A stretch of DNA of 22,843 nucleotides from a virus: positions 1-22,843 of the IMG/VR virus record IMGVR_UViG_3300032073_000274; one strand, written 5' to 3'. Positions within the stretch are counted from its first letter, which is position 1. Every line of letters starts with the position of its first letter. Of the stretch, positions 1-22,843 are shown in pieces. Made by a program: the position numbers and the translations under genes. Under the pieces are notes generated by a model that was not told the DNA's origin, did not search any database, and saw only the letters and a list, made by a program, of their open reading frames with translations.

Positions 1-2
1 AC

Positions 3-1493
3 TGCAAAGGAGATCTAGCAGGGCAAAAATTTAAGCTAGAAAGGTGGCAGCGAAAAAAATTAATAGAGCCTATTTTTGGAATGAAGCATAAAGATACAGG
101 GCTTAGAAAGTATAGGAGTGTATATTGCGAAATTCCTAGAAAGAATGGTAAGAGTACTCTAGGAGCTGCAGTAGCTATATATATGCTTTTTGCAGATTCT
201 GAATTAGGCTCTGAGGTGTTTAGTTGTGCAGGAGATAAAAATCAGGCCTCTATTATATTTGATCTAGCAAAGAGAATGATTCAGCTAGATCCTTTACTAA
301 GCTCTAAAGCTAAAGTATTTAGAAACTCAATAACATTTCCTCATAAAGGAAATACTTATAGAGTACTTTCCTCTGATGCATCTTTGCAGCATGGGCATAA
401 TCCTAATGCTATTTTATTTGATGAGCTACATACTCAAAAGAATAGAGAGCTTTATGAAGTAATGCAAACAGGAACAGGATCTAGATCTCAGCCTCTGCTC
501 TTTACTATGACTACTGCAGGAGCTAGCAAAACTGATGGGAATATTTGTTGGGAGGTACATTCTTATTCTGAGAAAGTAAAAAAAGGGATTATAATTGATA
601 ATTCTCATCTATCAGTAATATATGCAGCAGAGGATGATGATGATATACAAGATCCTGAAACTTGGAAAAAAGCTAATCCTAATTTAGGAGTATCAGTATC
701 TGAGGAATATCTTAAAGCAGAAGCTAAGAGAGCATCTGAGCTCCCTAGTTATGAGAATACTTTTAAAAGATTGCACTTAAATATGTGGACTACTAATGTA
801 ACTAAGTGGATCTCAGATAGTGTATGGATGGAAAATTATGAGGAAATAGATCTAGAAATATTGAAAGGGAAAAAATGTTGGGGAGGATTAGATCTAGCTA
901 GTACTATGGATCTCAGCTCACTTGTACTCTTTTTTCCTATGGAGGATCAGAAAGATGTAGTACTTTCTTTTTTTTGGTGTCCTGAGGAATCAGCAGATCT
1001 AAGAGGTAGAAAATATAAGCTTCCTTATGATGAATGGATTAATGATGGATATATTAAAGCTACTGCAGGGAATGTTCAAGATTATGCTTTTATAAGAAAA
1101 GATATAAATGATATAATTAAAGATTATGATCTGCAGTCTATTGCTTTTGATAGATGGAATAGCTCTCAGCTAGTAATTCAATTATCTCAGGATGATGGAA
1201 TACCTATGAGCCAATTTGGGCAGGGATATAGGAGTATGAGTGCTCCTACTAAAGAACTTGAAAAGATGGTATTAAAAAAAGAAATTAATCATCTTAAAAA
1301 TCCTGTACTGAGGTGGATGTGTGAAAATGTAAGCCTGCAAACAGATGCATCCGATAATATAAAAATAAGTAAAAAAAGGAGTACTGAGAAAGTAGATGGG
1401 ATGGTATCTTTAGTAATGAGTATAGGAGAGATGCTTACTGATGAATCAGATGGAGATTCAGTATATGATGAAAGAGGATTATTAACTTTTTAA
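3..1493 (+). CDS. terL: Terminase large subunit (TerL), 5' end outside window
   Basis: Packaging motor: an ATPase that translocates DNA into the prohead plus a nuclease that cuts the concatemer. The frame is open back to base 3 (CKGDLAGQKFKLERWQRKK... precedes the ATG at 81). That upstream stretch looks like the adenine-binding region of Terminase_1 proteins, so the gene starts before the window and the ATG at 81 is internal. Walker A is PRKNGKST (bases 135-158) and Walker B is ILFDELH (about 411-431). The RNase H-like nuclease follows, with GGLDLAS (about 888-905) carrying the first metal-binding Asp, then AFDRWN near 1146 and VDGMVSLVMS near 1395. About 496 residues are visible, so roughly 50-80 may be missing. 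Family assignment is firm from the motifs. It heads the head-gene cluster, as usual in HK97-like phages. Confidence 0.96.
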   Translation, partial: CKGDLAGQKFKLERWQRKKLIEPIFGMKHKDTGLRKYRSVYCEIPRKNGKSTLGAAVAIYMLFADSELGSEVFSCAGDKNQASIIFDLAKRMIQLDPLLSSKAKVFRNSITFPHKGNTYRVLSSDASLQHGHNPNAILFDELHTQKNRELYEVMQTGTGSRSQPLLFTMTTAGASKTDGNICWEVHSYSEKVKKGIIIDNSHLSVIYAAEDDDDIQDPETWKKANPNLGVSVSEEYLKAEAKRASELPSYENTFKRLHLNMWTTNVTKWISDSVWMENYEEIDLEILKGKKCWGGLDLASTMDLSSLVLFFPMEDQKDVVLSFFWCPEESADLRGRKYKLPYDEWINDGYIKATAGNVQDYAFIRKDINDIIKDYDLQSIAFDRWNSSQLVIQLSQDDGIPMSQFGQGYRSMSAPTKELEKMVLKKEINHLKNPVLRWMCENVSLQTDASDNIKISKKRSTEKVDGMVSLVMSIGEMLTDESDGDSVYDERGLLTF

Positions 1494-1502
1494 TATAAAT
1501 TA

Positions 1503-1709
1503 ATGGATATAGAAATTTTAGCTTTATTAAGCCCTGCAGGATTTGAAAAAAGATTTCATCAATTTTGCAAAATTAGCAAAACTTATGAGGATGCTTATGA
1601 ATTAACTGAGGAGGAATATGAAAAAAACTTTAAAAAAAGGAGATATGCTTCTTATGATTCTTTTAGGGTTACTAAAAATAGAAAGAATAGAAACAAAGTT
1701 ACATCTTAG
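1503..1709 (+). CDS. Small protein of unknown function between TerL and portal
   Basis: A 68-residue charged protein starting 9 bases after the terminase stop. The first part is hydrophobic-helical (IEILALLSPAGFEKRF), the middle is acidic (ELTEEEYEK) and the end is very basic (KKRRYAS, KNRKNRNK). No signal peptide or membrane segment is visible. Codon use matches its neighbours (GAG before GA, AGG before AGA), which supports real coding. The position between terminase and portal suggests a packaging or head-assembly accessory, but I recognise no family and assign no function. Confidence 0.7.
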   Translation: MDIEILALLSPAGFEKRFHQFCKISKTYEDAYELTEEEYEKNFKKRRYASYDSFRVTKNRKNRNKVTS

Positions 1710-1755
1710 ATCCTTTTTACTTTCGTATTATTGAAGGCACTAATCAGAGAATTTT

Positions 1756-2976
1756 ATGGGCCTACTAGATACTATTAGAAGTATATTTAAAGGGAAAGAG
1801 AAAAGAAATGGATTTTATGAGGCTATGTCCTCAGTAAATGGAAATAATGCAGGAGTAGCAGTATCTGATGAAACTGCTTTAAATTTTACTGCAGTATGGG
1901 CTGCTATAAGAATACTATCTGAATCAGTTGCTCAGCTTCCTCTTTCTATATATGAATCAGATAAGCTAGGTAATAAAAGTCAGGCCTATAATCATCAGCT
2001 CTATAATTTAATTCATAGGAAGCCTAATGATAATATGACTACTTACACTTTTATTCAGAAGTGTATGCTAGATCTATTACTTAGAGGAAATTCTTTTGTA
2101 TATATTAATAGAAATAGATCAGGCAGGCCTACTGAGCTACTTCCTTTAGATGTTACTAAAGTAAAATTAGTAGAAAATGATGGAGCTATATATTATGAGC
2201 TTCAGGAAGGAGGAGTAGTAGATAGCTATGATATACTTCATTTCAAAGTAATGAGCAGAGATGGGCTTATAGGTATGAGCCCTATAGATGTAGGAGCTTC
2301 TGCTATTGGATATGGAATAGCTTTAGAAAGATATGGAAATTCTTTCTTTTCTAATGGAGCAAAAGTATCAGGCATACTTTCTACTGATAGGCATCTATCA
2401 GATGAGGCTATCAATAGATTAAGAGTATCCTTTAAAGAGAATTATTCTAGTATTAAAGATGCTAATAAAACTATGGTACTAGAGGAAGGGCTACAATTTA
2501 AGCAGATTAGCCTTTCAAATGAAGCCTCTCAATTCCTAAAAAGCAGGGAATTTTCTATAAGTGAGATCTGTAGATTATTCAATTTGCCTCCTCACTTATT
2601 AAGAGATCTTACAAAATCTAGCTTTAATAATATATCAGAGCAAAGTAGAGAATTTGTGCAGTATTCTTTAATGCCTTATATAGTAATGATGGAATCTGAG
2701 ATGAATTGCAAGCTTTTTAGATCTACTGAAGTTGGAAAGATTACTACTAAATTTGTAGTAAATGCTCTGCTCAGAGGTACTCCTAAAGATAGATCTGAAT
2801 ATTATAGAACTATGCTAAATATAGGAGCTATGAGTATTGATGAGATAAGACAATATGAGGAGCTGCCTACTATAGAAGGAGGAGAAAATCACTTTATGCA
2901 GTTGAATATGAGTACTTTAGATAATATAATTAAAGGAGGTACTTTAATGAATAATGATACTGATGCCGATTCCTAA
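1756..2976 (+). CDS. Portal protein, HK97 family
   Basis: The portal forms the ring at the unique head vertex through which DNA passes and to which the terminase and connector bind. The 406-residue length is typical of the HK97-type Phage_portal family. Recognisable stretches are AVWAAIRILSESVAQLPLSIY near residue 50, HQLYNLIHRKPN near 80 and LRGNSFVYINR near 108. Further on come LHFKVMSRDGLIGMSP near 165 and SISEICRLFNLPPHLL near 270, all characteristic of this family. The start is separated by 46 bases from the preceding gene. The 3' end overlaps the next gene by about 20 bases, consistent with translational coupling. The acidic C-terminal tail (NNDTDADS) is probably flexible. Confidence 0.95.
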   Translation: MGLLDTIRSIFKGKEKRNGFYEAMSSVNGNNAGVAVSDETALNFTAVWAAIRILSESVAQLPLSIYESDKLGNKSQAYNHQLYNLIHRKPNDNMTTYTFIQKCMLDLLLRGNSFVYINRNRSGRPTELLPLDVTKVKLVENDGAIYYELQEGGVVDSYDILHFKVMSRDGLIGMSPIDVGASAIGYGIALERYGNSFFSNGAKVSGILSTDRHLSDEAINRLRVSFKENYSSIKDANKTMVLEEGLQFKQISLSNEASQFLKSREFSISEICRLFNLPPHLLRDLTKSSFNNISEQSREFVQYSLMPYIVMMESEMNCKLFRSTEVGKITTKFVVNALLRGTPKDRSEYYRTMLNIGAMSIDEIRQYEELPTIEGGENHFMQLNMSTLDNIIKGGTLMNNDTDADS

Positions 2977-4420
2977 GCCTAATATAGCAGAATCTAAAGA
3001 GGAATTTTTAGATAGATGTATGATAGATCCTACTATGGTAGCAGAGTATGATGAAAAGCAGAGATTTGCTATATGTGAATCTCAATTAGAAAGAAATATA
3101 AAAATAGTATCAGGATCTCCATGCTCAGGAAAGAATACATATATAGAAAGAAATAAAAAAGAAGGAGATATAGTATGGGATTTTGATAAAATACATTCTG
3201 CTTTAACAGGATCAGAATCTCATAATCATATAGAGAAAGTTAGAAAATATGTTTTTTCTATGAGAAAACAATTTTATTCAGATATAAAAAATGAAAAGGA
3301 GATAAGAGTATGGATCATAAATTCATCTCCTTTAAAAGAAGTAAGGCAAAACTTAGCAAAAGAATTAAATGCTGAAATTATATTTTTAAGTAGATCTAAA
3401 GATGAATGCTTAGAAGTTGCTAAAAATGAAAGGCCTAAAGAATGGGAAGGATATATAAATTCTTATTTTGAAAGATTAGAAACTCCTACTGATGAGGAGG
3501 AAATTAAAATAATAGAAGTAAATACTATGGAAAATATTAAAAAGAGGCATATACTAGAAATTAAAGAGGATGAAAAAACAATTACTCTCGTTTATTCTAA
3601 AGATCCTGATGCAGTTACTGAAGCCGAATCTGAGGAAGTGGTGGAGGTGGATGAAGTACAGGAGGAGGAGATAGATAGAGATCATATAGAAGGGCATGTA
3701 TCAGATGAGGAGGAAATTTTAGAGGAAATAGATGAGGAGGTAGAGGATGAGCTAGAGGAATCTCCTGAAAATACTTATAGTAGATCTATGGAGAAAGTAG
3801 ATGTATGGGATAAAAAACATACTCAGGAAACTAGATTTTTTGAGATAGAAAGTAGGTTAGATAAAAAAGAGGGCAGAGATGTAGTAGTAGGGCATGCTGC
3901 AGTATTTAATTCTCTTTCTGAGGATCTTGGAGGATTTAGAGAGAAAATTATGCCTAATGCTTTTGATGATGTATTAGATAATGATGTAAGAGCTTATTTT
4001 AATCACGATCCTAATTATTTATTAGGGAGAGTATCTGCAGGAACTTTAAGGCTAGCAGTAGATGATAAAGGATTGAAGTATGAGCTAGATATTCCTAATA
4101 CTACTGCAGGCAGAGATCTAAAAGAAAATTTAAAAAATGGAAATATTACTCAGAGCTCTTTTGCTTTTACTTTAGGAAAGGATGGAGATTCTTGGGAAAG
4201 ATCTGAGGATGGATCTGATCTTAGAATTATAAATAAGGTAGATAGATTATATGATGTATCTCCTGTAAGCCTTCCTGCTTATCCTAGTGCTGATAATTTA
4301 GCTTTAGCAGTAAGATCTAATTTTATGGATAAAGAAAATAAAAGAAAAGAGGATGAAAAGAATTATGAATTGAATACATTATTAAACTTAAAAATTAATT
4401 TACTAAAAAGAAAAAAATGA
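2954..4420 (+). CDS. Leader + P-loop kinase-like + HK97 (S78) prohead protease fusion
   Basis: Three modules occupy one 488-residue chain. Residues 4-46 (MPIPKPN...ESKEEFLDRCM...KQRFAIC) are the leader often seen on phage prohead proteases. Residues 49-190 form a P-loop nucleotide kinase-like domain: GSPCSGKNT at 54-62, VWDFDKIH at 74-81 and a lid-like basic stretch at 145-161. Residues about 222-272 are a strongly acidic linker. Residues about 290-455 are the S78 protease, with likely catalytic His351 (FNHDPNYLLGR), Ser401/402 (NITQSSFAF) and Asp434 (LYDVSPV). The protease matures the capsid and removes scaffold. The kinase-like part has no assigned role. Met4 (base 2963) fits the family leader better than Met1; the longer start is reported because I cannot exclude it. 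The stop overlaps the capsid start as ATGA. Confidence 0.9.
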   Translation: MILMPIPKPNIAESKEEFLDRCMIDPTMVAEYDEKQRFAICESQLERNIKIVSGSPCSGKNTYIERNKKEGDIVWDFDKIHSALTGSESHNHIEKVRKYVFSMRKQFYSDIKNEKEIRVWIINSSPLKEVRQNLAKELNAEIIFLSRSKDECLEVAKNERPKEWEGYINSYFERLETPTDEEEIKIIEVNTMENIKKRHILEIKEDEKTITLVYSKDPDAVTEAESEEVVEVDEVQEEEIDRDHIEGHVSDEEEILEEIDEEVEDELEESPENTYSRSMEKVDVWDKKHTQETRFFEIESRLDKKEGRDVVVGHAAVFNSLSEDLGGFREKIMPNAFDDVLDNDVRAYFNHDPNYLLGRVSAGTLRLAVDDKGLKYELDIPNTTAGRDLKENLKNGNITQSSFAFTLGKDGDSWERSEDGSDLRIINKVDRLYDVSPVSLPAYPSADNLALAVRSNFMDKENKRKEDEKNYELNTLLNLKINLLKRKK

Positions 4421-5634
4421 AAAAATCAATAGAACTTAAGGAAACTCGTTCAGGTTTAGTAGATACTTTAGAAGCAATTAAAACTACTGCTGAAGGAGAA
4501 TCTAGAAATTTGAATGAAGCTGAGGCTACTGAAGTAGATACTACTTTAGCTTCAATAGATGAATTAGATGTAAAAATAGAAAGAGCAGAAAAAATGGAGA
4601 AAGAATTAAGAACTGCAGCTTCAGTATCAGGAGTAAAAATAACTCCTCAAGCTGATAAAGATCTTAATAAGTTTACTTTTCAGGGAGCTTGCAGAGCAGC
4701 TTATACAGGTAAAGTAGATGGGATCTATAAAGAGATGCATGAGGAGGCAGTAAATGAATCTAGATATACAGGAAATAGTGTGAAAGGATATGGGATTCCT
4801 TCATCTATTTTAACTAGAGCATGGAGTACTTCATCTAGTAATGCTGAGGAAGTAATGAGCTTTACTGATCAATTAGAAAAAAATCTAGTTTTATCTAGTG
4901 CAGGAGCTAATACTTATTTCGGTATTAATGATATGAAATTCCCTGTATTTTCTGAAATAGCTTCTACTTGGGTATCTGAGGATGGAACTTCAGGAGCTGC
5001 TGCTTCTGCAGGATCTTTATCATCAGTAACTTTAACTCCTAAGAAATTAATCTCAGTAGTAAATATGACTGCAGAGAGTATGATGCAAAATCCTTCTTTA
5101 GAGGGAGCTCTTACTAGAAATATGGCTGCTCAAGTAGCTTCTGCTTTAGAGTATGCTTTACTTGATACAGGAGATGTATCTGATGCTCCTACTTCTATCT
5201 TTGCTGATGGTACTGCAGGCCCTACTACTATTACTGCTGCTGATTGGGTAGAGATGGAAACTGATGCTCTAGCTTTAGGAGTAAATAGAGAGGGATCTAG
5301 ATTAGCTTACTTATTAGATATGGATGCTTATAAGAGTGTAAAAACTTTAGCTCAGGTAGCTTCAGTATCTCCTTTATGGGATAATGCTGATAGGAGATTA
5401 AATGGATACTATGCTTTTCAAAGTGGTAATGTAGCTGCTTCAGGTACTGCTAATAAAGCTCATGCTTTATTTGGAGATTTCTCTAAAGTACATATCGCAC
5501 AATTTGGAGGCTTAGATATTTTATTTGATCCTTATACTAATGCAGCTTCAGGCTTGCCTAGAATGATTGTTACTTCTTTAGTTGATGGAGATGCTACGCA
5601 AAATTCATCTTTTATTAAATTAATTGAGGCATAA
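4417..5634 (+). CDS. Major capsid protein, HK97 fold
   Basis: The 405-residue HK97-type capsid subunit forms the shell. Residues 1 to about 70 are charged and helical (LKETRSGLVDTLEAIK, IDELDVKIERAEKMEKELR). They resemble the scaffolding delta domain that the upstream protease removes, and cleavage probably falls around residues 70-95. The remaining part shows family features: FTDQLEKNLVLSSAGANTYF, FPVFSEIASTWVSEDG near 165-195 (E-loop to spine region), LTPKKLISVVNMTAESMMQNP near 205-225 and the C-terminal P-domain with FGDFSKVHIAQFGGLDILFDPYT. It overlaps the protease stop (ATGA) and is followed by a strong terminator, which fits high expression. Assignment is firm from fold signatures and synteny. 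Confidence 0.95.
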   Translation: MKKSIELKETRSGLVDTLEAIKTTAEGESRNLNEAEATEVDTTLASIDELDVKIERAEKMEKELRTAASVSGVKITPQADKDLNKFTFQGACRAAYTGKVDGIYKEMHEEAVNESRYTGNSVKGYGIPSSILTRAWSTSSSNAEEVMSFTDQLEKNLVLSSAGANTYFGINDMKFPVFSEIASTWVSEDGTSGAAASAGSLSSVTLTPKKLISVVNMTAESMMQNPSLEGALTRNMAAQVASALEYALLDTGDVSDAPTSIFADGTAGPTTITAADWVEMETDALALGVNREGSRLAYLLDMDAYKSVKTLAQVASVSPLWDNADRRLNGYYAFQSGNVAASGTANKAHALFGDFSKVHIAQFGGLDILFDPYTNAASGLPRMIVTSLVDGDATQNSSFIKLIEA

Positions 5635-5649
5635 TTTGTTTATAAAATT

Positions 5650-5828: not shown

Positions 5829-6398
5829 ATGAAATATTTAGAAGTAGTATCTCATCATAATACGCAAGTAGTAAGCACTGCAGATCTTAAAAAACATCTC
5901 AGAATTACATTCAATAATGATGATACTTATATAGATGGATTAGAAAAAGCTGCAGTACAAAGGATAGAGGAATTTTGTAATATTTATTTATTAGAAACTA
6001 CTCTCAGGCAGTATGGAAATAAATTTAAGGATCTAAATATTCTATTTAAAAGCCCTATAAAAAATGCAGCTTTTGATGTAAAGTATAAAAGTGGAGGAGC
6101 TTGGGTAGCTTTTACTTCCTCCTGCGAATTAGTACAACATATAAAGCCTCCTAGAATTTATGCTAATCCTGATTCTACTATTCCTAATACTGATGATATA
6201 TTTCAGGCTTGGAGAGCTGATTATATAGTAGGATGGGCCTCTGCAGGAGATATTCCTCATCCTATTATACAGGCTATAAAAATAGTAGTAGCAGATATGT
6301 ATGAGAATAGGCAGTCAGTAATTATAGGAAAGACTGCTACTGAAATTCCTAGAACTGCTCAATATTTAATGAATCCTTATAAAATTCAAACTCTATGA
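5829..6398 (+). CDS. Head-tail connector, gp6-like
   Basis: A 189-residue adaptor that docks under the portal ring. The N-terminal half has the usual gp6/YqbG-like layout: STADLKKHLRITFNNDDTYIDGLEKAAVQRIEEFCNIYL (residues about 17-56), meaning a threshold helix pair and a long helix. A beta-rich central segment with IKNAAFDVKYKSGGAW follows. The C-terminal helix ends in HPIIQAIKIVVADMYENRQSV, which is highly typical (usually ...AI..lva.lYenRe). The start follows the leader ATAGAAAAAAATG, and the stop overlaps the next start (ATGA). Family assignment rests on these signatures and on synteny. Confidence 0.88.
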   Translation: MKYLEVVSHHNTQVVSTADLKKHLRITFNNDDTYIDGLEKAAVQRIEEFCNIYLLETTLRQYGNKFKDLNILFKSPIKNAAFDVKYKSGGAWVAFTSSCELVQHIKPPRIYANPDSTIPNTDDIFQAWRADYIVGWASAGDIPHPIIQAIKIVVADMYENRQSVIIGKTATEIPRTAQYLMNPYKIQTL

Positions 6399-8229: not shown

Positions 8230-8754
8230 GTGGCTTTAAATGGAATAATAAATGGAGCTCAGATAGCAATATATCTAGATGCAGAAGTATCAGTATTATC
8301 TACTTCTTTATCTTGGAATATTGAGCATAAAACTAGATCTACTACTTGCAGAGAAGGGAATGCATGGAGTACTGCAGCTCCTTTTATGAGAGCATGGAGT
8401 GCAGATGTAGAAAATTTATTAGCTTTTAGGAATGCAGATGGGCAGCTTTATAATTCTCAAGCAGGGCAGATTTCAATAGATACAATAATAAAAGAGTATA
8501 TTATACTGCAAAAGCCTGTAAATATCAAGATAAAGCCTAATCAAAATTTAGCTAATGGGAATAAGCAGTGGGTAGGGAGTGCCTATGTTACAAGTGTATC
8601 TGCAGATACTCCTAATGAGGATAATAGTACTTTTTCAGTAAGCTTAAAAGGAGCAGGATTGCTTAGATTAACTCAAACAGGCCCTATACAACATTGGGAT
8701 GATGATATGCATCATCCTTTAGATTTTAATGATTTAGTACTATCATTCCCTTAA
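8230..8754 (+). CDS. Tail tube protein paralogue 1 (GTG start)
   Basis: A 174-residue protein of the phage tail-tube (TP901-1/major tail protein) type. It opens GIINGAQIAIYLDAEVSVLSTSLSWNIEHKTRSTTC, the typical first strands, and ends VTSVSADTPNEDNSTFSVSLKGAGLL, the closing signature of the family. The second copy at 8824-9255 has an almost matching segment, so the two are paralogues. Translation starts with GTG, four bases after the previous stop, without the A-rich leader that precedes copy 2, which predicts weaker expression. It carries a C-terminal extension (residues 152-174, HWDDDMHHPLDFND) that copy 2 lacks. It may be the minor tube or tail-terminal ring component. Confidence 0.82.
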   Translation: MALNGIINGAQIAIYLDAEVSVLSTSLSWNIEHKTRSTTCREGNAWSTAAPFMRAWSADVENLLAFRNADGQLYNSQAGQISIDTIIKEYIILQKPVNIKIKPNQNLANGNKQWVGSAYVTSVSADTPNEDNSTFSVSLKGAGLLRLTQTGPIQHWDDDMHHPLDFNDLVLSFP

Positions 8755-9695: not shown

Positions 9696-10039
9696 TAGAT
9701 TTTACTTTTGATGATGTAGAGCAGATAGGCTTAGGAGAGCTAGGATTTACTATAGATCAGATCTATAATATGAATCCTAAAAACTTTTTAAATGCTCAGC
9801 TAGGCAGAAAGAGATTATATGATCAGGATCAGCAGGCCGAATGGGAGAGAGCTAGATGGATAGCTTGCGTAATAATTAATCCTCATTTGAAAAGAGCTAT
9901 AGATCCTAAAAAATTAACTACTTTCCCATGGGAGAGAGTAGTAAGAAAAAATAAGAAAAAAGATATAGAGAAAATATTAAAAGAATCTCAGTATCAGGAT
10001 AAGTTAAACGAACTAAGAAAAAAGAAAAAAGATGCCTAA
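9674..10039 (+). CDS. Frameshift-encoded T domain of the tail chaperone (GT fusion)
   Basis: Slipping back one base at AAG (9672-9674) joins the first 110 residues of the upstream protein to 121 residues from this frame, giving a fusion of about 231 residues. The joined part begins EQKEAEVIDFTFDDVEQIG and continues through GELGFTIDQIYNMNPKNFLNAQLG, then QAEWERARWIACVIINPH. This last block is typical of T domains in Bacteroidota phages, where it reads 'w...R.ia..i.....k'. An ATG at 9770 could be mistaken for a separate start, but the frame is open and protein-like upstream of it. The stop overlaps the tape measure start by 8 bases. Confidence 0.82.
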   Translation, partial: EQKEAEVIDFTFDDVEQIGLGELGFTIDQIYNMNPKNFLNAQLGRKRLYDQDQQAEWERARWIACVIINPHLKRAIDPKKLTTFPWERVVRKNKKKDIEKILKESQYQDKLNELRKKKKDA

Positions 10040-12659
10040 AAAAGCCTTAGCCTCCTTAAATGTAGTAATAAATGCAGTAACAGGCCCATTATTTAAAGGC
10101 CTGAATAAAGCTTCTAAAAGACTTGCAGTCTTTGGAGCTAAAATGAAAACTATAGGGAGATCTATCTCTACTTCTTTTACTTTACCTTTTGCTGCTATTG
10201 GAGTAGCAGGAGCTAAAATGGCTATTGACTTTCAGAAAAATATGACTAAGATTAATACCTTAGTAGGTATTTCAGCTTCTGAAGTAAATAAAATGCAGGG
10301 AGAAGTAATGAAGCTATCAGGAGCTACTGCTCAAGCTCCTGCAGATCTAGCTGATGGATTATTCTTTTTAACTTCTGCAGGATTAAGAGGAGCTAATGCT
10401 ATGCAAACTTTAGAGAGTGTATCTAAAGGGGTAGCAATAGGCTTAGGAGAGCAAACTGATCTAGCTAAAGTAGCTGCTGCTGCTCAGAATGCTTATGGAG
10501 CTGATACTATTACTGCTTCAAAGGCTTTGGATGTATTTGGAATGAGTGTTCAGCAGGGAATGTTTGAAGCTTCAGATCTTGCTGAGGTATTAGGTACTCA
10601 GTTAGGGCTTGCATCTAGTTTAGGAATATCTTTTGAGGAAACTAATGCTTTCATAGCTACTTATACTAAAACTACAGGAGATGCTAAAAGTGCTTCTACA
10701 AGTTTTGGAGGTGTTATGATGGCTTTAGCTAAAACTACTCCTCAGATGGAAAGAGCTCTGAATCAGGTAGGAATGACAGGAGATTCAGTAAGAGCTAGCT
10801 TAGGAGAAAATGGATTAAGGCAGACACTTATAGATATAAAAGCTGCTTTTGAAGCTCAGGGAGTGCCTTTAACTCAATTTTTTAGCAAGTCGCAAGCTTT
10901 AAAGGGTGTACTAGGAGTATTAGGGAATCAAACTGAAACTTATGGAGAAGTACTAGAAGGAATGCATAATTCAGTAGGTATGGTAGATGATGGATTTAAT
11001 ACCTTAGAAAATACTGCAGGCTTTAAAATGCAGAAGGCCTTTACTAATCTAAAGAATGCTGCTATGGAGCTAGGAGCTATGCTTATGCCTATATTTACTG
11101 CTATAGTAGATGGAGCAGTAAAATTAGGATCTGCTTTTACTGAATTAGATGGAGGTACTAAAAAATTATTAGTAGGAGCTGCAGCTCTTTTTGCTTTCTC
11201 AGGGCCTTTAATGACTTTAGCAGGAGGATTAGTATCTGCTATAGGAGCAATACTTTCTCCTGTAGGATTAGTAGTAATAGCTTTAGGATTAATATTTAAA
11301 GTTATCTATGATAATTGGGCTAGCGTTAGAAAAACTTTAGTAGATTTTATTAATTATTTTATAGATCTTTATAATGAATCTATAGGATTTAGAACTATAG
11401 TAGAAGGCTTTAAAGCAGTATTTCTAGGAGCATGGGCTACTGCTAAATTCTTTATAAAGTCAGCTATTCAAGCTTTCAAAAATTTTGGAAATTTCTTTAA
11501 GGAAATATTTGGTAGTATAGGAGATATAATAAAAGGAGTATTTACTTTAGATACTGATCTGATAAAATCAGGGATAAAAGACTTAGGGAAAGGAGTAAAA
11601 AAGACTTTTACTAAAGATATGGATGATATTAAGTCAGAGTATAATGATACTATGACTGAAATAGGAGAAGGCTTCTCAGCAGGAGTAAATAGAACTGATA
11701 AAGTAGAATTCATTACTGAGGAGGATGTTCAGAGAAATGTAGATAATGTAAACGGGTGGCTGCAGGATAAAATGGGTAAAGCAAAAAATGCTATTCAGGG
11801 ATTAATAGGAGGAGGTAGTTTAGGAGTGCCTGATTCAGGAGGAGATCCTGTAGATCCTACTTCAGGAGGAGGAGATGATGGTACTAAAGATCTAGAAAAA
11901 ACTATTCAAAAGAAAAAATCTATTTTGCAGAGCTATTTAGATTGGGCTAAAACAGGATATGAAGGCTTTGCTGATAAAGTAGGAGAGGTATGGGATTCTA
12001 TTGCTAATGTAGCAGGATCAGTATTAAGTGGAATATCTAATTTATGGGCTGCAGAAGCAGAAAAGCAAAATCAGATTTTAGCTAATGAGGAAACTGAAAA
12101 GCAGACTGCTTTAGATCAGGATTTTGCTAGGCAGGAAGCTATCATAGAGAATTCTACTATGAATCAGGCTAAAAAAGATGAGGCTCTTACTAAATTAAAG
12201 GAAAAATTTGATGAAAAGCAGGGAGCTTTAGATAAGAAAATGGATGATAAAAAGAAGGCTTTACAAAAGAAGCAGGCTATAAGAGATAAGCAGATGAAAA
12301 TAGCTTCAGCTATTATGAGTACTGCTCAAGCAGTAGTACAGGCTTTAACTGCAGGCCCTATAGCAGGCCCTATATTAGCAGGAATAGTAGGGGGATTAGG
12401 AGCTGCTCAGATAGCAGCTATAGCTTCTACTCCTATTCCTTTAGCAAAAGGAGGATTAGCTTTTGGGCCTACTAATGCAATAGTAGGAGATAATCCTAAT
12501 GCAGCTAATGATCCTGAGGTAGTAGCTCCTTTATCTAAGCTTAAAGGGATGTTAGGAGGGGAGATGAATGTTTCTCTAAATGTAGGAGGAGTATTAAAAG
12601 GATCTGATATTTTCTTAGCTAATGAAGCTGATACTGAAGCTAGAGAAAGATATATATAA
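10032..12659 (+). CDS. Tape measure protein
   Basis: An 875-residue protein that sets tail length and is ejected ahead of the DNA. Residues about 60-290 form the TP901-type (PhageMin_Tail) domain: DFQKNMTKINTLVGIS, LADGLFFLTSAGLRG, NAYGADTITASKALDVFG, ASDLAEVLGTQLG and SFGGVMMALAKTTPQMERAL. Residues about 375-428 are strongly hydrophobic (LLVGAAALFAFSG, GLVVIALGLIF), able to span a membrane two or three times. Residues about 680-756 form a charged coiled coil (KDEALTKLKEKFDEKQGALDKK). A Gly/Ala-rich segment (AGPILAGIVGGLGAAQIAAIAS) and a PLAKGGLAFGPTNAIVGDNPNA tail, common in this family, follow. At about 0.15 nm per residue the tail would be roughly 130 nm. It overlaps the chaperone stop by 8 bases. 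Confidence 0.93.
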   Translation: MPKKALASLNVVINAVTGPLFKGLNKASKRLAVFGAKMKTIGRSISTSFTLPFAAIGVAGAKMAIDFQKNMTKINTLVGISASEVNKMQGEVMKLSGATAQAPADLADGLFFLTSAGLRGANAMQTLESVSKGVAIGLGEQTDLAKVAAAAQNAYGADTITASKALDVFGMSVQQGMFEASDLAEVLGTQLGLASSLGISFEETNAFIATYTKTTGDAKSASTSFGGVMMALAKTTPQMERALNQVGMTGDSVRASLGENGLRQTLIDIKAAFEAQGVPLTQFFSKSQALKGVLGVLGNQTETYGEVLEGMHNSVGMVDDGFNTLENTAGFKMQKAFTNLKNAAMELGAMLMPIFTAIVDGAVKLGSAFTELDGGTKKLLVGAAALFAFSGPLMTLAGGLVSAIGAILSPVGLVVIALGLIFKVIYDNWASVRKTLVDFINYFIDLYNESIGFRTIVEGFKAVFLGAWATAKFFIKSAIQAFKNFGNFFKEIFGSIGDIIKGVFTLDTDLIKSGIKDLGKGVKKTFTKDMDDIKSEYNDTMTEIGEGFSAGVNRTDKVEFITEEDVQRNVDNVNGWLQDKMGKAKNAIQGLIGGGSLGVPDSGGDPVDPTSGGGDDGTKDLEKTIQKKKSILQSYLDWAKTGYEGFADKVGEVWDSIANVAGSVLSGISNLWAAEAEKQNQILANEETEKQTALDQDFARQEAIIENSTMNQAKKDEALTKLKEKFDEKQGALDKKMDDKKKALQKKQAIRDKQMKIASAIMSTAQAVVQALTAGPIAGPILAGIVGGLGAAQIAAIASTPIPLAKGGLAFGPTNAIVGDNPNAANDPEVVAPLSKLKGMLGGEMNVSLNVGGVLKGSDIFLANEADTEARERYI

Positions 12660-16127: not shown

Positions 16128-16319
16128 ATGAAGGCTAAAATGATAAATGATGTATTTACTAAAATTTGCCCTACTACTATGATACTTAATATAGGAGCAA
16201 TAGGAATGAGCTTAACTGATGTAGAAATAGGATTAAAAATACTCTCATATATTGTAGCAGTATTATATACTATAATAAAAATAATGAAAGAAGTATCTGA
16301 ATGGAGAAAAAAAAAATAG
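16128..16319 (+). CDS. Small membrane protein, probable holin
   Basis: A 63-residue protein with a hydrophobic N-terminal half (TTMILNIGAIGMSL, residues about 16-29), a turn (TDVEIGLK) and a second hydrophobic helix (ILSYIVAVLYTIIKIM, about 38-53), then a basic end (EWRKKK). Two membrane helices with a charged tail is the usual small-holin design. The gene overlaps the endopeptidase gene by 19 bases, so the two are translated together, supporting a role in releasing the lysin across the inner membrane. Holin function is inferred from topology and neighbour, not from a family-specific motif. Confidence 0.72.
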   Translation: MKAKMINDVFTKICPTTMILNIGAIGMSLTDVEIGLKILSYIVAVLYTIIKIMKEVSEWRKKK

Positions 16320-16687
16320 ATTTTAATATTAATCTAAAATATTTTAAGATGGAGGAATTTAATCAGAAAGGCCTTCCTGAATCTTGGAGAAAGATGGATA
16401 TTAATTTACTTTTGATTTTAGATAAAATGAGGCATAGAGCAGGAATACCTTTTAAAATTACTTCTGCTTATAGATCTCCTGAATATAATAAAACTTTAAA
16501 AAATGCATCTCCTAATTCAGCTCACTTATTAGGAAAGGCAGTTGATATATCAGTAAAAGATAGTAAGAGTAGGTATCTTATCTTAGAAGCTGCTATTTAT
16601 TATGGAATACAAAGGATAGGAATTGGAGATAATTTTATACATATAGATATAAAAGAAAATCCTGCTGAGGTAGCATGGATCTATTAA
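16301..16687 (+). CDS. M15-family peptidase, endolysin
   Basis: A 128-residue zinc peptidase of the Peptidase_M15_3 type, which cuts peptide cross-links in the cell wall to release progeny. Key residues are visible: ITSAYRSPEYN (53-63, with Arg58), SAHLLGKAVDI (73-83, giving His75 and Asp82 as zinc ligands) and FIHIDI (112-117, giving His114). A conserved Glu/Asp near the last block would act as the base. The chain is only the catalytic domain, with no signal peptide and no wall-binding domain, which fits export through a holin and a Gram-negative host. The N-terminus starts inside the holin gene. Confidence 0.93.
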   Translation: MEKKKIDFNINLKYFKMEEFNQKGLPESWRKMDINLLLILDKMRHRAGIPFKITSAYRSPEYNKTLKNASPNSAHLLGKAVDISVKDSKSRYLILEAAIYYGIQRIGIGDNFIHIDIKENPAEVAWIY

Positions 16688-16705: not shown

Positions 16706-16954
16706 ATGAAAAAATGGTTAAGTAGTATAGTAATAAATCAGATCTTACATAGTAAAAAATTTATTTATGCTATAAGTAGTATTATAGTGCCTAGTATTTG
16801 TACTGCTTTAGGAGTAGATGAGCAGACTGCATCTAATTTATTTTATGCTTTACTAAGTTTAGCAGGCTTTCAGGGATTAGCTGATATAGGTAAAGAAGCT
16901 AAGAAAGTATGCTCAGATGGATCTTGTGAGCCTAAAAAAACTAAAAAGAAGTAA
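16706..16954 (+). CDS. Small membrane protein, possible second holin or spanin-like lysis protein
   Basis: An 82-residue protein with a hydrophobic segment at about 18-38 (KFIYAISSIIVPSICTALG) and another at about 43-57 (ASNLFYALLSLAGFQG), followed by a charged tail with two cysteines (KVCSDGSCEPKKTKKK). It is preceded by the leader TTAATTAATTAAAAAAAAAATTATG and couples to the next gene by TAATG. Position right after the lysin and the membrane topology point to lysis, perhaps as antiholin, second holin or an outer-layer helper. The paired cysteines in the tail are unusual for a holin. No family is recognised. Confidence 0.68.
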   Translation: MKKWLSSIVINQILHSKKFIYAISSIIVPSICTALGVDEQTASNLFYALLSLAGFQGLADIGKEAKKVCSDGSCEPKKTKKK

Positions 16955-17703
16955 TGAAGCAATTTAGGCCTAGATTGAGCCTAAAGGAAAATAAATTTCT
17001 TAAAGAATTTAGGCGAAAAAAAGTAAATAGATTAGTAATTGGAGATATGCATCTCCCTTATACTCATCCTAAATACTTAGATCATTGTAAAGAAGTATAT
17101 AAGAGGCATAATTGTAATGCAGTCAGTTTTACAGGAGATCTTATAGATTCTCATTTCAGCTCATTCCATCCTATTAGTACAAAATCAGAAGGAGCTGCCT
17201 TTGAATTATCTAATGCAATAGAGATGATAAAGGAATGGTATGAAGCCTTTAATAATGATTCAGTACCTAATGGAATAAGTGTAACTCTTGGGAATCACGA
17301 TCTAATAATATATAGGAAAAGTGAGGATGCAGGAATAGATAAAAGATGGGTAAGGAATCTTAATGAAGTATTAGGAGTACCTGATTGGAAATTTGAGGAG
17401 CAGTTTGTTTGGGATAATGTTTTATATACACATGGTACAGGATGCTCAGGTAAAGGTATAATGAAAAGGGTACAAAATTGGGGTACTTCTATGATACAGG
17501 GCCACATTCATACTCAGGCTTTTATAGATTATACTTGTAGCCTTAAAGATCTGAAATTTGGAATGCAGGTACCTACAGGAATAGATTATAAAAGCTTTGC
17601 CTTTTCTTATGCTAAATTTCATACTGCTAAGCCTATGCTAGGCTGCTCAGTAGTATTAGATAATGGTAGAATGCCGATCATAGAGCCTATGATTCTTACA
17701 TAA
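16954..17703 (+). CDS. Calcineurin-like metallophosphoesterase
   Basis: A 249-residue two-metal phosphoesterase with all five family blocks: GDMH (Asp31, His33), GDLIDSH (Asp62), GNHD (Asn114, His115), YTHG (His160) and GHIH (His184, His186). Such enzymes hydrolyse phosphomono- or diesters; the substrate here cannot be read from the sequence. Both the GDxH and GNHD sites are intact, so it should be active. It overlaps the preceding membrane-protein gene by one base (TAATG) and is the last gene before the non-coding control region. Similar stand-alone phosphoesterases occur in other phages with suggested roles in nucleotide or RNA end processing, but no specific role is assigned. Confidence 0.92.
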   Translation: MKQFRPRLSLKENKFLKEFRRKKVNRLVIGDMHLPYTHPKYLDHCKEVYKRHNCNAVSFTGDLIDSHFSSFHPISTKSEGAAFELSNAIEMIKEWYEAFNNDSVPNGISVTLGNHDLIIYRKSEDAGIDKRWVRNLNEVLGVPDWKFEEQFVWDNVLYTHGTGCSGKGIMKRVQNWGTSMIQGHIHTQAFIDYTCSLKDLKFGMQVPTGIDYKSFAFSYAKFHTAKPMLGCSVVLDNGRMPIIEPMILT

Positions 17704-17710
17704 AAAAAGA

Positions 17711-17865: not shown

Positions 17866-17899
17866 TACATTCTGAGATCTCTTTTATTTTGTACTTTTG
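17866..17899 (+). promoter_or_regulatory. Candidate early promoter with TAnnTTTG box
   Basis: TACTTTTG at 17892-17899 matches the Bacteroidota -7 consensus TAnnTTTG. A TTTG -33 box at the expected distance is not present; the nearest is TTCTG at 17870-17874. A transcript starting around 17905 would reach the ATG at 17928 after a short leader. A second weaker candidate is ATTG (17843-17846) with TACATTCT (17866-17873), spaced by 19 bases. It depends on the assumed host. Confidence 0.33.
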
Positions 17900-17927
17900 G
17901 CTCAGTATTAATTAAAAAAAAGGAATT

Positions 17928-18758: not shown

Positions 18759-18759
18759 A

Positions 18760-19014: not shown

Positions 19015-19019
19015 AAAAA

Positions 19020-19472: not shown

Positions 19473-19473
19473 A

Positions 19474-19884
19474 ATGGAAAAAACTATAGAAATTGCTAAA
19501 TGCACTTTAGCAGATATATTCAGTATAAACAAATTAGAATTTGATAGAAAGATAACTAGGATAGCTCCTGTAGTAGAAGCTAGGAGATTTTTAATTTATT
19601 TTCTAGTAAATGAATGCAGCTTAAAATTTTCAGAAGTACCTAAAGTAATGAAGTGTATTACTTCCCATGCTTCAGCTATGCATCACTTTTATAAGATGAT
19701 GGGATGGATGGATCTAGAAGCTGATTCATATAAAAAGCTTCAGCTTAAATATATTGATTTTAAAAATCAGATGCTAGATAAGGGAATGGAGCATCTAGAA
19801 AAAGAACTTCATAATCAGTATGCTATGAGAAAAACTATTAATTGGAATATAAAAAAATTAAAAAAAATGATAAATGAAGCCTAG
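19474..19884 (+). CDS. DnaA domain IV-like DNA-binding protein
   Basis: A 136-residue protein whose residues about 34-75 (VVEARRFLIYFLVNECSLKFSEVPKVMKCITSHASAMHHFYKM) have the layout of the DnaA C-terminal domain. That layout is an 'R' plus hydrophobic helix, 'S..EI/V...' helix-turn-helix, and 'H.....H...' recognition part, where DnaA reads 'HsTV.hA'. No AAA+ motor is present, so it would bind DNA without opening it by itself. The C-terminal part is a long charged helix. It lies between the OB-like gene and the winged-helix initiator, which fits origin recognition. It begins one base after the previous stop and overlaps the next gene by 11 bases. Moderate confidence, from pattern alone. Confidence 0.62.
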   Translation: MEKTIEIAKCTLADIFSINKLEFDRKITRIAPVVEARRFLIYFLVNECSLKFSEVPKVMKCITSHASAMHHFYKMMGWMDLEADSYKKLQLKYIDFKNQMLDKGMEHLEKELHNQYAMRKTINWNIKKLKKMINEA

Positions 19885-20491
19885 TTATTATGCTATTATT
19901 CCTGCAGATGTGAGATATTCAGATCTGAAGCCTAATGCTAAGCTACTATATGGAGAGATCACTGCTTTAAGTAGTAAGGAGGGATATTGCTTTGCTACTA
20001 ATAGATATTTTGCATCTCTTTATAATGTTACTAAGAATACTATTTCTTTATGGGTATCTCAGCTACATAAAGCAGGCTTTATATCAGTAGAATTAATTAA
20101 GAAAGGGGAGCAGATCACTGAAAGAAGGATAGGTATCATTAAAAATGATGAGAGGGCTCATATTAAAAATGATGATCTTAGTAGTATAAAGATTAATAAT
20201 ACAAGTAATAATATATCTCTAAGGAGATTGAAATTTAAAAATGATATTTCTTTATTAGAATATGATCCTAAATTTTTAAAGGAGTTTTTTGAATATTGGA
20301 GTGAGCCTAATAAAAGTAAAAGTAAAATGAGATATGAGCTAGAAAAGACTTGGGATCTAGAAGCTAGATTCAAGAGATGGATGATTAATGTAAAAAAATG
20401 GAGCACTAAAAAAACTTCTAATACTTTTAGATCTAAAATGGATACATATTCTAGAGCTAAAGAGATGATGAATCAAATAAATAACAAATGA
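19874..20491 (+). CDS. Winged-helix replication initiator-like protein
   Basis: A 205-residue protein. Residues 1-90 match the HTH_36/initiator winged helix common in phage replication proteins: YYAIIPADVRYS, LKPNAKLLYGEITALSSKEGYCFATNRYFASLYNVTKNTISLWVSQLHKAGFISVEL. A charged linker follows. Residues about 133-185 have the C-terminal block FFEYWSEPNKSKSKMRYELEKTWDLEARFKRWM, found at the end of DnaD-like or initiator proteins of Bacteroidota phages and thought to load helicase. It overlaps the preceding DnaA-like gene by 11 bases and the next gene by 4 bases. It should bind the origin and recruit host helicase, since no helicase is encoded here. Confidence 0.82.
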   Translation: MKPSYYAIIPADVRYSDLKPNAKLLYGEITALSSKEGYCFATNRYFASLYNVTKNTISLWVSQLHKAGFISVELIKKGEQITERRIGIIKNDERAHIKNDDLSSIKINNTSNNISLRRLKFKNDISLLEYDPKFLKEFFEYWSEPNKSKSKMRYELEKTWDLEARFKRWMINVKKWSTKKTSNTFRSKMDTYSRAKEMMNQINNK

Positions 20492-20859
20492 TGATAAAAA
20501 ATATGCCTATTCAAGATCTTAGATCTTATTCAGTAGAAATTCTTTCTAGAACTTTTTTAGAATTGAGGCAGCATAGTATATCTGAGGATGATATAGTAAG
20601 CCTAAGCCTGATACTAGCAGAGGATCTGCAGAAAGATTTTAAAAATTTAGAAATTATAGATATTAAAGAAGCTTTTAGAAAAGGAATCAGAGATACTGAT
20701 GATTTTCTAATAGGCCCTAAGATATGGTATAAATGGATTAAAAAGTATAGGAATTTATTATGGGATGCTGAATATCAGGTTAAGACTATGAATCAAAATC
20801 CTAAGAAAGTGCCTTACTTTAAAGAAGCATCAGTAAAATTATTAAAAAATAAAATATGA
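20488..20859 (+). CDS. Unknown protein, possible helicase-loading or replication accessory
   Basis: A 123-residue helical protein. The segment FKNLEIIDIKEAFRKGIRDTDDFLIGPKIWYKWIKKYRN (about 52-92) resembles a block seen in small phage proteins next to initiators ('lt..ei..Af..G..........t...W...y'). It overlaps the initiator gene by four bases and the next by four bases, and is probably translated with them. A replication-accessory role is inferred from this linkage; there is no Walker motif, zinc site or known loader signature. Start could be Met1 or Met2 of MM, or Met6. Confidence 0.65.
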   Translation: MMIKNMPIQDLRSYSVEILSRTFLELRQHSISEDDIVSLSLILAEDLQKDFKNLEIIDIKEAFRKGIRDTDDFLIGPKIWYKWIKKYRNLLWDAEYQVKTMNQNPKKVPYFKEASVKLLKNKI

Positions 20860-21053
20860 CAAAAGATAAAGACTTCAGCTCCCTTAAATATGTAAATCTT
20901 TCTAATAAAAGAGGCTTTAAGGAGGAATACTCTGAATATAGAAAGAGATTGAGAGAAAACTATTATAAGGTTAAATATTATCTTAAAGGTACTTTATATT
21001 GGGATAGCTTAAGTAAAGGTACTTATAGAATAAATAAAAAAGAAAATAAATGA
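20856..21053 (+). CDS. Unknown small basic protein
   Basis: A 65-residue Lys/Tyr/Arg-rich protein (KDKDFSSLKYVNLSNKRGFKEEYSEYRKRLRENYYKVKYYLKGTLYWDSLSKGTYRINKKENK). Its central helix EEYSEYRKRLRENYYKVKYYL and strongly basic end give a net positive charge. There is no membrane segment or motif. It overlaps neighbours on both sides by the ATGA arrangement, which supports expression. The codon pattern (AGG/AGA, GAG before GA) is the same as in certain genes. Confidence 0.6.
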   Translation: MTKDKDFSSLKYVNLSNKRGFKEEYSEYRKRLRENYYKVKYYLKGTLYWDSLSKGTYRINKKENK

Positions 21054-21256
21054 GTTTTTTAAATCATTTGAAAAGAGCAAATATTAGCTCAGAGATAAGA
21101 TGGATAGTAAAATATGAAAATTCTAAAATTATAGAAGTAAAGCAGATTTTTAATCCTGATGAATATAAAATTAATAAAAAAGCTAGAAAGATGTATAATA
21201 GAATAGAACTGATAAAAATTTTAGAGAATGACAAAGAAAAAAAAAGCAGCTCATAA
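21050..21256 (+). CDS. Unknown small basic protein
   Basis: A 68-residue protein: FLNHLKRANISSEIRWIVKYENSKIIEVKQIFNPDEYKINKKARKMYNRIELIKILENDKEKKSSS. The first half reads as two or three strands (SSEIRWIVKYEN, KIIEVKQIF) and the second as a helix with basic surface. It overlaps the next gene by 29 bases in another frame, a long overlap for this operon, so the true C-terminus or the next start may need checking. No family recognised. Confidence 0.6.
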   Translation: MSFLNHLKRANISSEIRWIVKYENSKIIEVKQIFNPDEYKINKKARKMYNRIELIKILENDKEKKSSS

Positions 21257-21527
21257 TGAATTATATTATGAAGTAGATAGGAATATAGATCCTAATGCTA
21301 ATAGAATTAAAACTTTTGAGGAGATGGAGATACCTGCTTATTATATAGGTAAAAAATATAAGATAGAAGCTAGAAAAGTAGTATCTGATTTTAGCCTTAG
21401 CTTTAATGTAGGATCTGCAGTAACTTACTTACTTAGGCATAGGAATAAGCATAAAGATCCTAGAGAGTGTATAAATAAAGCAATAAAGCATCTTATCTAT
21501 GAATTAGAGGAATTAAATGATGAATAA
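21228..21527 (+). CDS. DUF3310-like protein (nucleotide kinase-like annotation)
   Basis: A 99-residue protein with the DUF3310 pattern at residues about 43-92: YKIEARKVVSDFSLSFNVGSAVTYLLRHRNKHKDPRECINKAIKHLIYELEE. The family reads 'y.iE..dvi..f.L.f..GNaiKYi.R...K......DL.KA..yl'. Phage members are sometimes annotated as nucleotide kinase-like, but activity is not established, and this version replaces the usual 'NaiKY' with SAVTY. The N-terminal basic region (MTKKKKAAHN) overlaps the preceding gene, so the start may be later, for example near residue 33. It overlaps the following membrane-protein gene by 11 bases. Confidence 0.78.
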   Translation: MTKKKKAAHNELYYEVDRNIDPNANRIKTFEEMEIPAYYIGKKYKIEARKVVSDFSLSFNVGSAVTYLLRHRNKHKDPRECINKAIKHLIYELEELNDE

Positions 21528-21693
21528 AAAAAATCTATTAATATTGAATCTAATAATAAAAACTATAGTAGAATTAGCTATAGTATGTACTTTAGTAGCA
21601 TCAGTAGGATTAATAGTATTTATTTGTACTTATATCTATAAAAGTATTAATAATGCTATAGATGAGTACTATGGAACTATTAACAATATATAG
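21517..21693 (+). CDS. Short single-pass membrane protein (58 aa)
   Basis: Reads MMNKKNLLILNLIIKTIVEL, then AIVCTLVASVGLIVFICTYI, then YKSINNAIDEYYGTINNI, and stops with TAG at 21691-21693. The first ATG lies in the stop region of the preceding gene (AAATGATGAATAA), an overlap arrangement repeated along this operon. It is preceded by GAGGAATTAA. Residues about 7-40 are continuously hydrophobic, giving one long or two short membrane helices, with a basic N-terminus (KK) predicted inside and a short acidic tail. Codon use (ATA, TTA, GTA, ACT) is as in neighbouring genes. Small early membrane proteins can act in superinfection exclusion or host takeover, but nothing here shows which. Confidence 0.68.
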   Translation: MMNKKNLLILNLIIKTIVELAIVCTLVASVGLIVFICTYIYKSINNAIDEYYGTINNI

Positions 21694-21754
21694 TTAAAAA
21701 GAAACATTATTCCATTGTTTATTCTATTTCATCTTTCTATAGATTAGCAGAACT

Positions 21755-22090
21755 ATGAATGAGCAAAACTTACAGGAGGCTCTTGTTACTTATATTCAGC
21801 TTAAATTTAAAGGGGTGAGATTTTGTGCTAGTGCAGGAGGATTAAGAACTTCTATCTCTCAGGCATCAGCTATGAAAAGAGCAGGCTATGTTAAGGGAGT
21901 GCCTGATATGCAGATAATGGAAAGCAGGCATAGTTATAATGGATTATTCATAGAACTTAAAACAAAGAAAGGAAGGCTATCTCCTCATCAGAAAGAATGG
22001 ATAGAGGATCTAAATGATAGAGGCTATTTGGCTAAGTGTTGTTATGGATTAGATGAAGCTTTAGATCTGATAGATTGGTATCTTAAATAA
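21755..22090 (+). CDS. VRR-NUC domain nuclease
   Basis: A 111-residue stand-alone VRR-NUC protein. It shows a start with Gln/Glu (NEQNLQEAL), the catalytic block GVPDMQI (48-54, Asp51), IELKTKKGRLSPHQKEW (66-82, Glu67 and Lys69, with Gln79) and the final strand/helix YLAKCCYGLDEALDLI. Such nucleases act on branched or single-stranded DNA in phage replication and recombination. The PD-(D/E)xK residues are all present, so it should be active. It starts after a 61-base gap following the small membrane gene and is followed 10 bases later by another nuclease gene. Confidence 0.92.
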   Translation: MNEQNLQEALVTYIQLKFKGVRFCASAGGLRTSISQASAMKRAGYVKGVPDMQIMESRHSYNGLFIELKTKKGRLSPHQKEWIEDLNDRGYLAKCCYGLDEALDLIDWYLK

Positions 22091-22100
22091 TAAAAACTAT

Positions 22101-22436
22101 ATGAGAGCAATAAGTAAAAAGCAGAGTAAGATTAATAGAGAGCTAAAGAAAGTATATAATTATATAGCAGAAACTAGAGGGCACTATTGCTCAGGATGTG
22201 GCCGATCAGATGTACCTTTATCTCATTCTCACTATATAGCTAGAAGCAGAAGGAAGGATCTAGAAACTGATCCTGATAATATTACTTATCACTGCCTAAG
22301 CATAGGGGAGAGGAAAGGTTGTCATTCTTTATGGGAGGGGGGGGTAGCTGATAAACAAAAGCTTCTAGATTATCCTAAAGCTATGGAATATATATTAGAG
22401 AAAGATACTGAGCTCTATTTCTTAATTACTGAATAA
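22101..22436 (+). CDS. Zinc-binding NinG-like/HNH-type nuclease, putative
   Basis: A 111-residue protein with a zinc-binding CSGC (Cys30, Cys33), SHSHYI (His42, His44) and CHSLWE (Cys74, His75), plus Cys65. It also has DPDNITYHC. The order 'C..C ... SH.H ... DP.Ni...C......CH..WE' is the layout of NinG/Rap-like and HNH-like recombination endonucleases in phages, which resolve branched DNA. A run of eight G's lies at 22337-22344, encoding Gly-Gly after WE, and the frame is intact across it. The stop overlaps the next start by one base (TAATG). Fold assignment is moderate; metal-binding residues are clear. Confidence 0.75.
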   Translation: MRAISKKQSKINRELKKVYNYIAETRGHYCSGCGRSDVPLSHSHYIARSRRKDLETDPDNITYHCLSIGERKGCHSLWEGGVADKQKLLDYPKAMEYILEKDTELYFLITE

Positions 22437-22786
22437 TGCCTAAGATGCCTCCTCCTAAAGATCGCCCATGGATTCCTAAAAGAAAAAAGAAAGTAGATCA
22501 TCTCAATTATAATAGGAGTAGATCTGCAGGAGAAATGTTAAGCTTTTATCAGAGTAAGCAGTGGAGATCTTTAAGAAATTATAAGATTCAGATGCAGCCT
22601 TTATGTGAGCACTGCGAAAAAAAAGGATTAGTAGAATCAGCTAGAGAGATAGATCATATAGTAGCTATAAAAGATGGAGGAGAAAGATTAAGCCTTAGGA
22701 ATCTGCAGAGCCTTTGTAGATCTTGTCATTCTAGGAAGTCAGTACAGGAAAGAGAAGCAAGAAAACATATAAAGAAGTATTACTAA
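22436..22786 (+). CDS. HNH endonuclease, packaging-associated
   Basis: A 116-residue HNH enzyme. The pattern is FYQSKQWRSLRNYK (37-50), CEHC (57-60), REIDHIVAIKDGG (70-82, with Asp73-His74 as the catalytic pair), NLQSLCRSCHSRKS (89-102, with Asn89, Cys94, Cys97, His98). This arrangement is typical of the HNH proteins encoded just before the terminase genes in HK97-type phages, which in related phages are needed for genome cutting at packaging. The N-terminus is Pro/Lys-rich (MPKMPPPKDRPWIPKRKKK). It follows the NinG-like gene with a one-base overlap. Confidence 0.93.
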   Translation: MPKMPPPKDRPWIPKRKKKVDHLNYNRSRSAGEMLSFYQSKQWRSLRNYKIQMQPLCEHCEKKGLVESAREIDHIVAIKDGGERLSLRNLQSLCRSCHSRKSVQEREARKHIKKYY

Positions 22787-22799
22787 AATAAAAAAAAAA

Positions 22800-22843
22800 T
22801 TGGGAGGAGTGAGTAAAATCTTAAATAGAGATCTATATAAAAC
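22800..22843 (+). CDS. 5' end of a probable terminase small subunit gene (cut by window end)
   Basis: After the HNH stop, a run TAAAATAAAAAAAAAA is followed by TTG at 22800, with GTG in the same frame at 22809. Reading gives LGGVSKILNRDLYK and continues off the window end. An A-run directly before the start is the usual leader in this genome. In HK97-like phages the gene between the HNH and TerL is the small terminase subunit, and TerL is cut at the other end of this window. Only about 14 codons are visible, so the call is by synteny, not sequence. Confidence 0.4.
   Translation, partial: MGGVSKILNRDLYK

Follow-up and report, generated by a model that had tools for sequence, protein, structure and literature searches.

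The IMG/VR virus record analysed here (22,843 bp at its full length; hereafter, the window) is a fragment of a siphophage that contains neither GAAGA/TCTTC nor CCAG/CTGG on either strand. We infer a host nuclease with MboII-like (Type IIS) specificity and a second activity recognising CCAG, and consider it very probable that both sites were eliminated under the selection that such a system and activity impose.

GAAGA/TCTTC is completely absent from the window

An exact word count over positions 1-22843 found 0 copies of GAAGA and TCTTC on both strands, compared with ~59 expected under a maximal-order Markov model and 72.3 ± 6.0 (minimum 57) in 300 shuffles in which synonymous codons were permuted while the proteins and codon usage were kept fixed. 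The lower of the codon-shuffle and second-order Markov expectations is 66. The first-pass annotation had described the word as apparently absent throughout, and the count and both types of null model confirm that it is real. Closely related words are not affected: GAAGG, GAAGC, and GAAGT, which had been described as common, occur 51, 78, and 72 times on both strands, nearly all one-base neighbours of GAAGA are present at or above expectation, and the single-base neighbours together are in excess (1272 observed vs 990 expected). The codon choices to which the annotation had drawn attention were also found as described. The first Glu codon is GAG in all 57 Glu-Glu and Glu-Asp pairs, with GAA used 296 times and GAG 186 times across the window, while Arg-Arg is encoded by AGGAGA (five times), AGAAGG (four times), or AGGCGA (once), and never by AGAAGA.

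The word is absent from only one of the 117 related contigs with enough sequence

Searches of IMG/VR with the terminase large subunit (TerL), tape-measure, capsid, and phosphoesterase proteins yielded 124 non-redundant AT-rich contigs. GAAGA was absent from just one of the 117 with enough sequence, namely the window itself. The first-pass annotation had named an equal absence in host genes without such a system as contrary to its reading; looked for in these related phages, no equal absence was found, with the observed/expected ratio in the other 116 contigs having a median of 1.30 and a minimum of 0.30.

We then aligned the window codon-wise with 28 relatives. None of the relatives' 659 GAAGA/TCTTC positions is kept in the window, a number in which window positions recur across relatives, such that these are not independent events. 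In comparison, control five-letter words were kept at 16-57% of their positions, and the four-letter control CCAC/GTGG, itself rare in the window, at 10%. The most frequent substitution leaves the amino acid unchanged (GAA to GAG), and 228 of the 659 sites read GAGGA in the window. The encoded amino acid is changed at 56% of the aligned GAAGA sites (370/659), as against 32-53% for other five-letter words (e.g., GAAGC, 199/503; AGAAG, 411/770).

These alignments bear upon two other explanations. Given that only metagenomic contigs are available, an artefact of assembly or library preparation, such as the loss of fragments cut at GAAGA or CCAG, has to be considered. However, the sites are replaced by sense-preserving substitutions within intact genes, and a second contig of the same phage (L001; 99.99% identical over 14.2 kb, with two mismatches) agrees with the window and extends the absence upstream by 1.2 kb that also contains 0 GAAGA and 0 CCAG. 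We therefore reject an artefact, which is scarcely credible. Alternatively, GAAGA might have been removed by a preference for certain codons or codon pairs, such as a bias against GAA preceding GA for reasons of translation or frameshifting; the word was indeed mostly lost via the choice of codons, and this AT-rich genome has biased codon contexts. This too is rejected as very improbable, because the synonymous shuffle with usage kept still gives 72 copies, both GAAGA and its complement are gone from the coding strand, and relatives with 72-82% DNA identity and the same gene set use GAAGA freely, at or above expectation.

Both orientations are missing from the coding strand

All called genes of the window lie on the + strand (Table 1). 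In 1000 codon shuffles, this strand was expected to contain 57.9 copies of GAAGA (minimum 43), 14.2 of TCTTC (minimum 6), 88.4 of CTGG, and 9.2 of CCAG, and it has 0 of each. Since both orientations are gone even though the genes occupy one strand, the absence points to double-stranded DNA as the target of selection, as the first-pass annotation had argued for GAAGA; a pressure on transcripts or translation would have caused one orientation alone to vanish. Five-base RNA words are typical targets of MazF-like mRNA interferases, and GAAGA might have been lost in evading such a toxin, or an RNA-sensing defence that recognises it in transcripts; yet TCTTC, a different word in RNA, is equally absent, as are CTGG and CCAG. 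We rejected RNA-level selection as having very little chance of being correct.

The same observation is relevant to the class of enzyme. Instead of a Type IIS nuclease, the activity reading GAAGA might be a defence of Type III, a BREX-like one, or one linked to phosphorothioation, given that Type III and BREX modification typically involves asymmetric words and that GAAGA avoidance cannot by itself reveal the enzyme class. BREX motifs, however, usually comprise six bases. Type III enzymes require two opposed sites, so that clearing one strand would suffice, yet both orientations are gone, and avoidance of their sites was rarely seen by Rusinov et al. (PMC6286503). We consider such a defence unlikely.

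Table 1. Features of the window
Feature	Position	Strand	Basis or remark
GAAGA/TCTTC- and CCAG/CTGG-free region	1..22843	both	also 0 ACAGT/ACTGT, 0 TCGA, 0 CAAGG/CCTTG
Terminase large subunit, frame open to window start	81..1493	+	PHROG 9 E=1e-144; Pfam TerL_nuclease/TerL_ATPase
Portal protein	1756..2976	+	Pfam Phage_portal E=2e-104
Head maturation protease (S78)	2954..4420	+	Pfam Peptidase_S78
Major capsid protein	4417..5634	+	Pfam Phage_capsid; PHROG 617/10
Head-tail adaptor	5829..6398	+	PHROG 40/442
Probable tail tube protein	8230..8754	+	Pfam Phage_tail_2, just under cut-off
Tail tape measure protein	10032..12659	+	PHROG 991 E=1e-43
Large tail protein, 1145 aa	12677..16114	+	follows tape measure; no PHROG match
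M15 peptidase, likely endolysin	16301..16687	+	Pfam Peptidase_M15_3
Calcineurin-like phosphoesterase	16954..17703	+	PHROG 221; Pfam Metallophos
Replication initiation/DnaD-like protein with HTH_36	19874..20491	+	PHROG 19658/270; Pfam HTH_36
VRR-NUC nuclease (Holliday-junction resolvase-like)	21755..22090	+	Pfam VRR_NUC; PHROG 824/5702
HNH endonuclease (terminase-associated type)	22436..22786	+	Pfam HNH; PHROG 144

CCAG/CTGG and other scarce words

The asymmetric four-base word CCAG/CTGG is also missing from the window, with 0 copies vs 97.7 ± 6.0 expected in the synonymous-codon shuffle. It is likewise absent from the relatives L002 (0 of 69), L341 (0 of 53), and L207, and occurs once in L039, where 63 copies are expected. 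No enzyme could be assigned to it. A CCAG methylation motif has been reported in Sporosarcina P32a, where 30.9% of sites were detected as modified and no methylase was assigned (PMC5930826). The CCAG deficit, which was missing from the first-pass annotation, is larger than that of GAAGA.

Two further words, ACAGT/ACTGT (0 vs 14) and CAAGG/CCTTG (0 vs 16), are weaker candidates for avoidance. TCGA is absent as well, but merely ~6-13 copies are expected. There is no avoidance of GATC (165 vs 113 expected) or CTAG (121 vs 108), and any reduction of CATG is mild (20 copies, vs 24 expected or 58 by maximal-order Markov). Separately, we observed that ACAGH (ACAG plus A, C, or T) occurs five times vs 78 expected, and that ACAGG exceeds its expectation (54 vs 22). 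Among the relatives, ACAGC is absent from L002, ACAGC and ACAGT from L039, and ACAGT from L036.

Forbidden words across the clade are mostly palindromic and change between close relatives

Total absence of short words recurs throughout the clade. Contigs entirely lacking a word were found for CTAG (23/109), CATG (19/89), GATC (12/115), CTNAG (5/110), ACGT (5/50), AATATT (4/57), TCGA (3/40), GANTC (3/112), and CCAG (3/122, the window included). Palindromes account for most of the totally absent 4-mers (65 of 1260 tested cases, vs 12 of 13,086 for non-palindromes; p=6e-57), and for all of the absent words of the form xyNzw (14/1443 vs 0/13,636). The clade's absent palindromes are sites of common Type II enzymes, namely NlaIII, DpnII/MboI, BfaI, DdeI, SspI, TaqI, and HinfI. 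The palindrome bias is characteristic of sites for Type II restriction, and it is our strongest argument that total absence of a word in this clade reflects restriction.

The set of avoided words also turns over among phages with less than ~20% divergence between their terminases, since L002, the nearest relative with a sizeable contig, lacks CCAG and GATC and retains GAAGA (31/42), and since CATG avoidance, seen in most of the surrounding clade, is gone from the L001/L002 pair (tree support 89/63, which is not strong).

One relative, L039 (contig G021), has five or more forbidden words: CTAG and CCAG are nearly gone together (CYRG, 1 vs 115), and GANTC (0/31), CTNAG (0/31), AATATT (1/43), and CAGC (0/27) are missing or nearly so.

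Gene content and host

The window is most of the genome of a probably virulent siphophage. Neither the window nor 12 related contigs yielded an integrase (13 contigs scanned, which are perhaps incomplete), and this is consistent with a virulent life style. It also counts in favour of restriction, because total site elimination is commoner in non-temperate phages (PMC6286503). There is no tRNA in the window, and the proteins scanned against PHROG and Pfam included no recognisable methylase or anti-restriction protein. Phage-encoded beta-class (PF01555) methylases are carried at or near the contig ends by the relatives L005, L012, L013, L014, L036, and L042 (loci L174:1-1185 and L163-L168); none was found in the window. 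From the position of its gene, the 1145-aa tail protein is probably a receptor-binding or fibre protein. With 51-54% identity to relatives, compared to 73-88% for TerL, portal, and capsid, it is the least conserved large protein; it has no match in PHROG or cultured phages, and it may follow host changes.

A Bacteroidota host appears likely on the basis of three sequence features. First, the Shine-Dalgarno core is depleted upstream of the window's start codons (3/34, vs 26% of random 17-mers). Second, 651 starts of the clade show upstream adenine maxima from -14 to -11 and at -3, a pattern also described for Flavobacterium johnsoniae and Bacteroidetes (PMC6847099). Third, the closest match to the TerL profile in the GTDB genome collection is a Flavobacteriales MAG contig (L082; 55% TerL identity), placed with L030/L033 by the TerL tree (support 97/92); other genomes from the family of this MAG gave no closer TerL match. 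Compared with cultured phages, the window proteins showed generic similarity only. A 79% match to Cellulophaga phage phi39:1 was discarded as a host clue, as it covers a mere 81 bp of the tape measure gene. The phage is probably marine, judging from some of the source metagenomes of its relatives, which we take to be ocean samples.

Search for a GAAGA-specific enzyme

GAAGA is the recognition sequence of Type IIS restriction-modification systems of the MboII/HpyAII type, and the absent word corresponds exactly to it. A search of candidate host genomes for an MboII-like gene gave no close relative of M.MboIIA in 396 Flavobacteriales or 395 Bacteroidota genomes; the best matches in the Bacteroidota sampled were general beta-class methylases with 30-40% identity. 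The query was a sequence printed in an alignment, with its middle masked, which slightly reduces sensitivity. One Flavobacteriales genome (G083; L221:680-3693) has a complete locus in which a Type IIS nuclease of the AlwI family precedes two beta-class, CcrM-like methylases. We rejected it as the GAAGA enzyme, given that both methylases are closest to CcrM (GANTC), but it shows that such Type IIS systems occur in Flavobacteriales. Nucleases of the DpnII family, the GATC enzyme, were above cut-off in four of the 396 Flavobacteriales genomes, two of them full length. In ocean metaepigenomes, two asymmetric motifs are described as carrying m6A together with m4C, and GAAGA/TCTTC is one of them (PMC9516812), as expected from a Type IIS system with two methylases; the passages of that study dealing with the motif tie it to no phage-host pair.

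Of the proposal in the first-pass annotation that the phage evades a host MboII-type Type IIS system, the evasion of a restriction site is thus strongly supported by the clearing of both strands, the specificity to this phage among 117 contigs, the 0/659 positions kept, and the palindromic absent words of the relatives, while the enzyme itself was not found in the genomes searched.

Discussion

Under the restriction explanation, hosts would carry, or would until recently have carried, nucleases that cut unmethylated GAAGA/TCTTC and CCAG/CTGG. Genomes with these sites would risk being cut on entry, and variants losing them would be favoured until zero copies were left. The loss would have been mostly synonymous (GAA to GAG before GA; CTGG to CAGG or TTGG), with part of it paid for in amino-acid changes. 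Several points count against this explanation: neither a host nor a GAAGA-specific enzyme was found in the genomes sampled, and the depletion of ACAGH has no clear enzyme match. In addition, Rusinov et al. found avoidance mainly of orthodox Type II sites, rarely of Type III sites, and not of Type I or IIG sites (PMC6286503), and a CCAG-recognising enzyme may be of any of these classes.

Loss of a word expected ~70 times in 23 kb indicates how hard restriction selects on wild phage. Since the words that are missing differ between close relatives, they can serve as an inventory of the enzymes that each phage lineage met, and they offer a sequence-only route to the restriction systems of uncultured hosts and to the prediction of phage-host matches; the CCAG case points to a specificity without an assignable enzyme. 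More tentatively, and with somewhat less than even confidence, we suggest that the clade evades restriction chiefly by eliminating words altogether and swaps its forbidden set at each host change, in which case its genomes would record the restriction repertoires of uncultured hosts, including a CCAG/CTGG activity.

Site avoidance is already known, and the window is a new extreme example in which two asymmetric words are cleared together; its interest lies in an unusually clear comparative record across a clade, with forbidden words changing between related viruses. In the dsDNA phages studied by Rusinov et al. 2018 (PMC6286503), roughly one viral genome in ten has lost its sites wholly or almost wholly; most of these viruses are non-temperate, and most of the sites are orthodox Type II. 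The window is similar in that short Type II-like sites are fully eliminated and no integrase was detected, but it differs in that GAAGA and CCAG are cleared at once and in that its close relatives have cleared other sets of words. As in the account of GANTC depletion in pelagiphages (PMC9516812), the phages here, which are probably marine, split by lineage into those without and those with a word, although the phage group and the words are different from those in that account. With respect to MboII/HpyAII-type systems, the avoided word is the exact recognition sequence, in both orientations; unlike those systems, the activity proposed here had no corresponding enzyme in the sampled Bacteroidota genomes.
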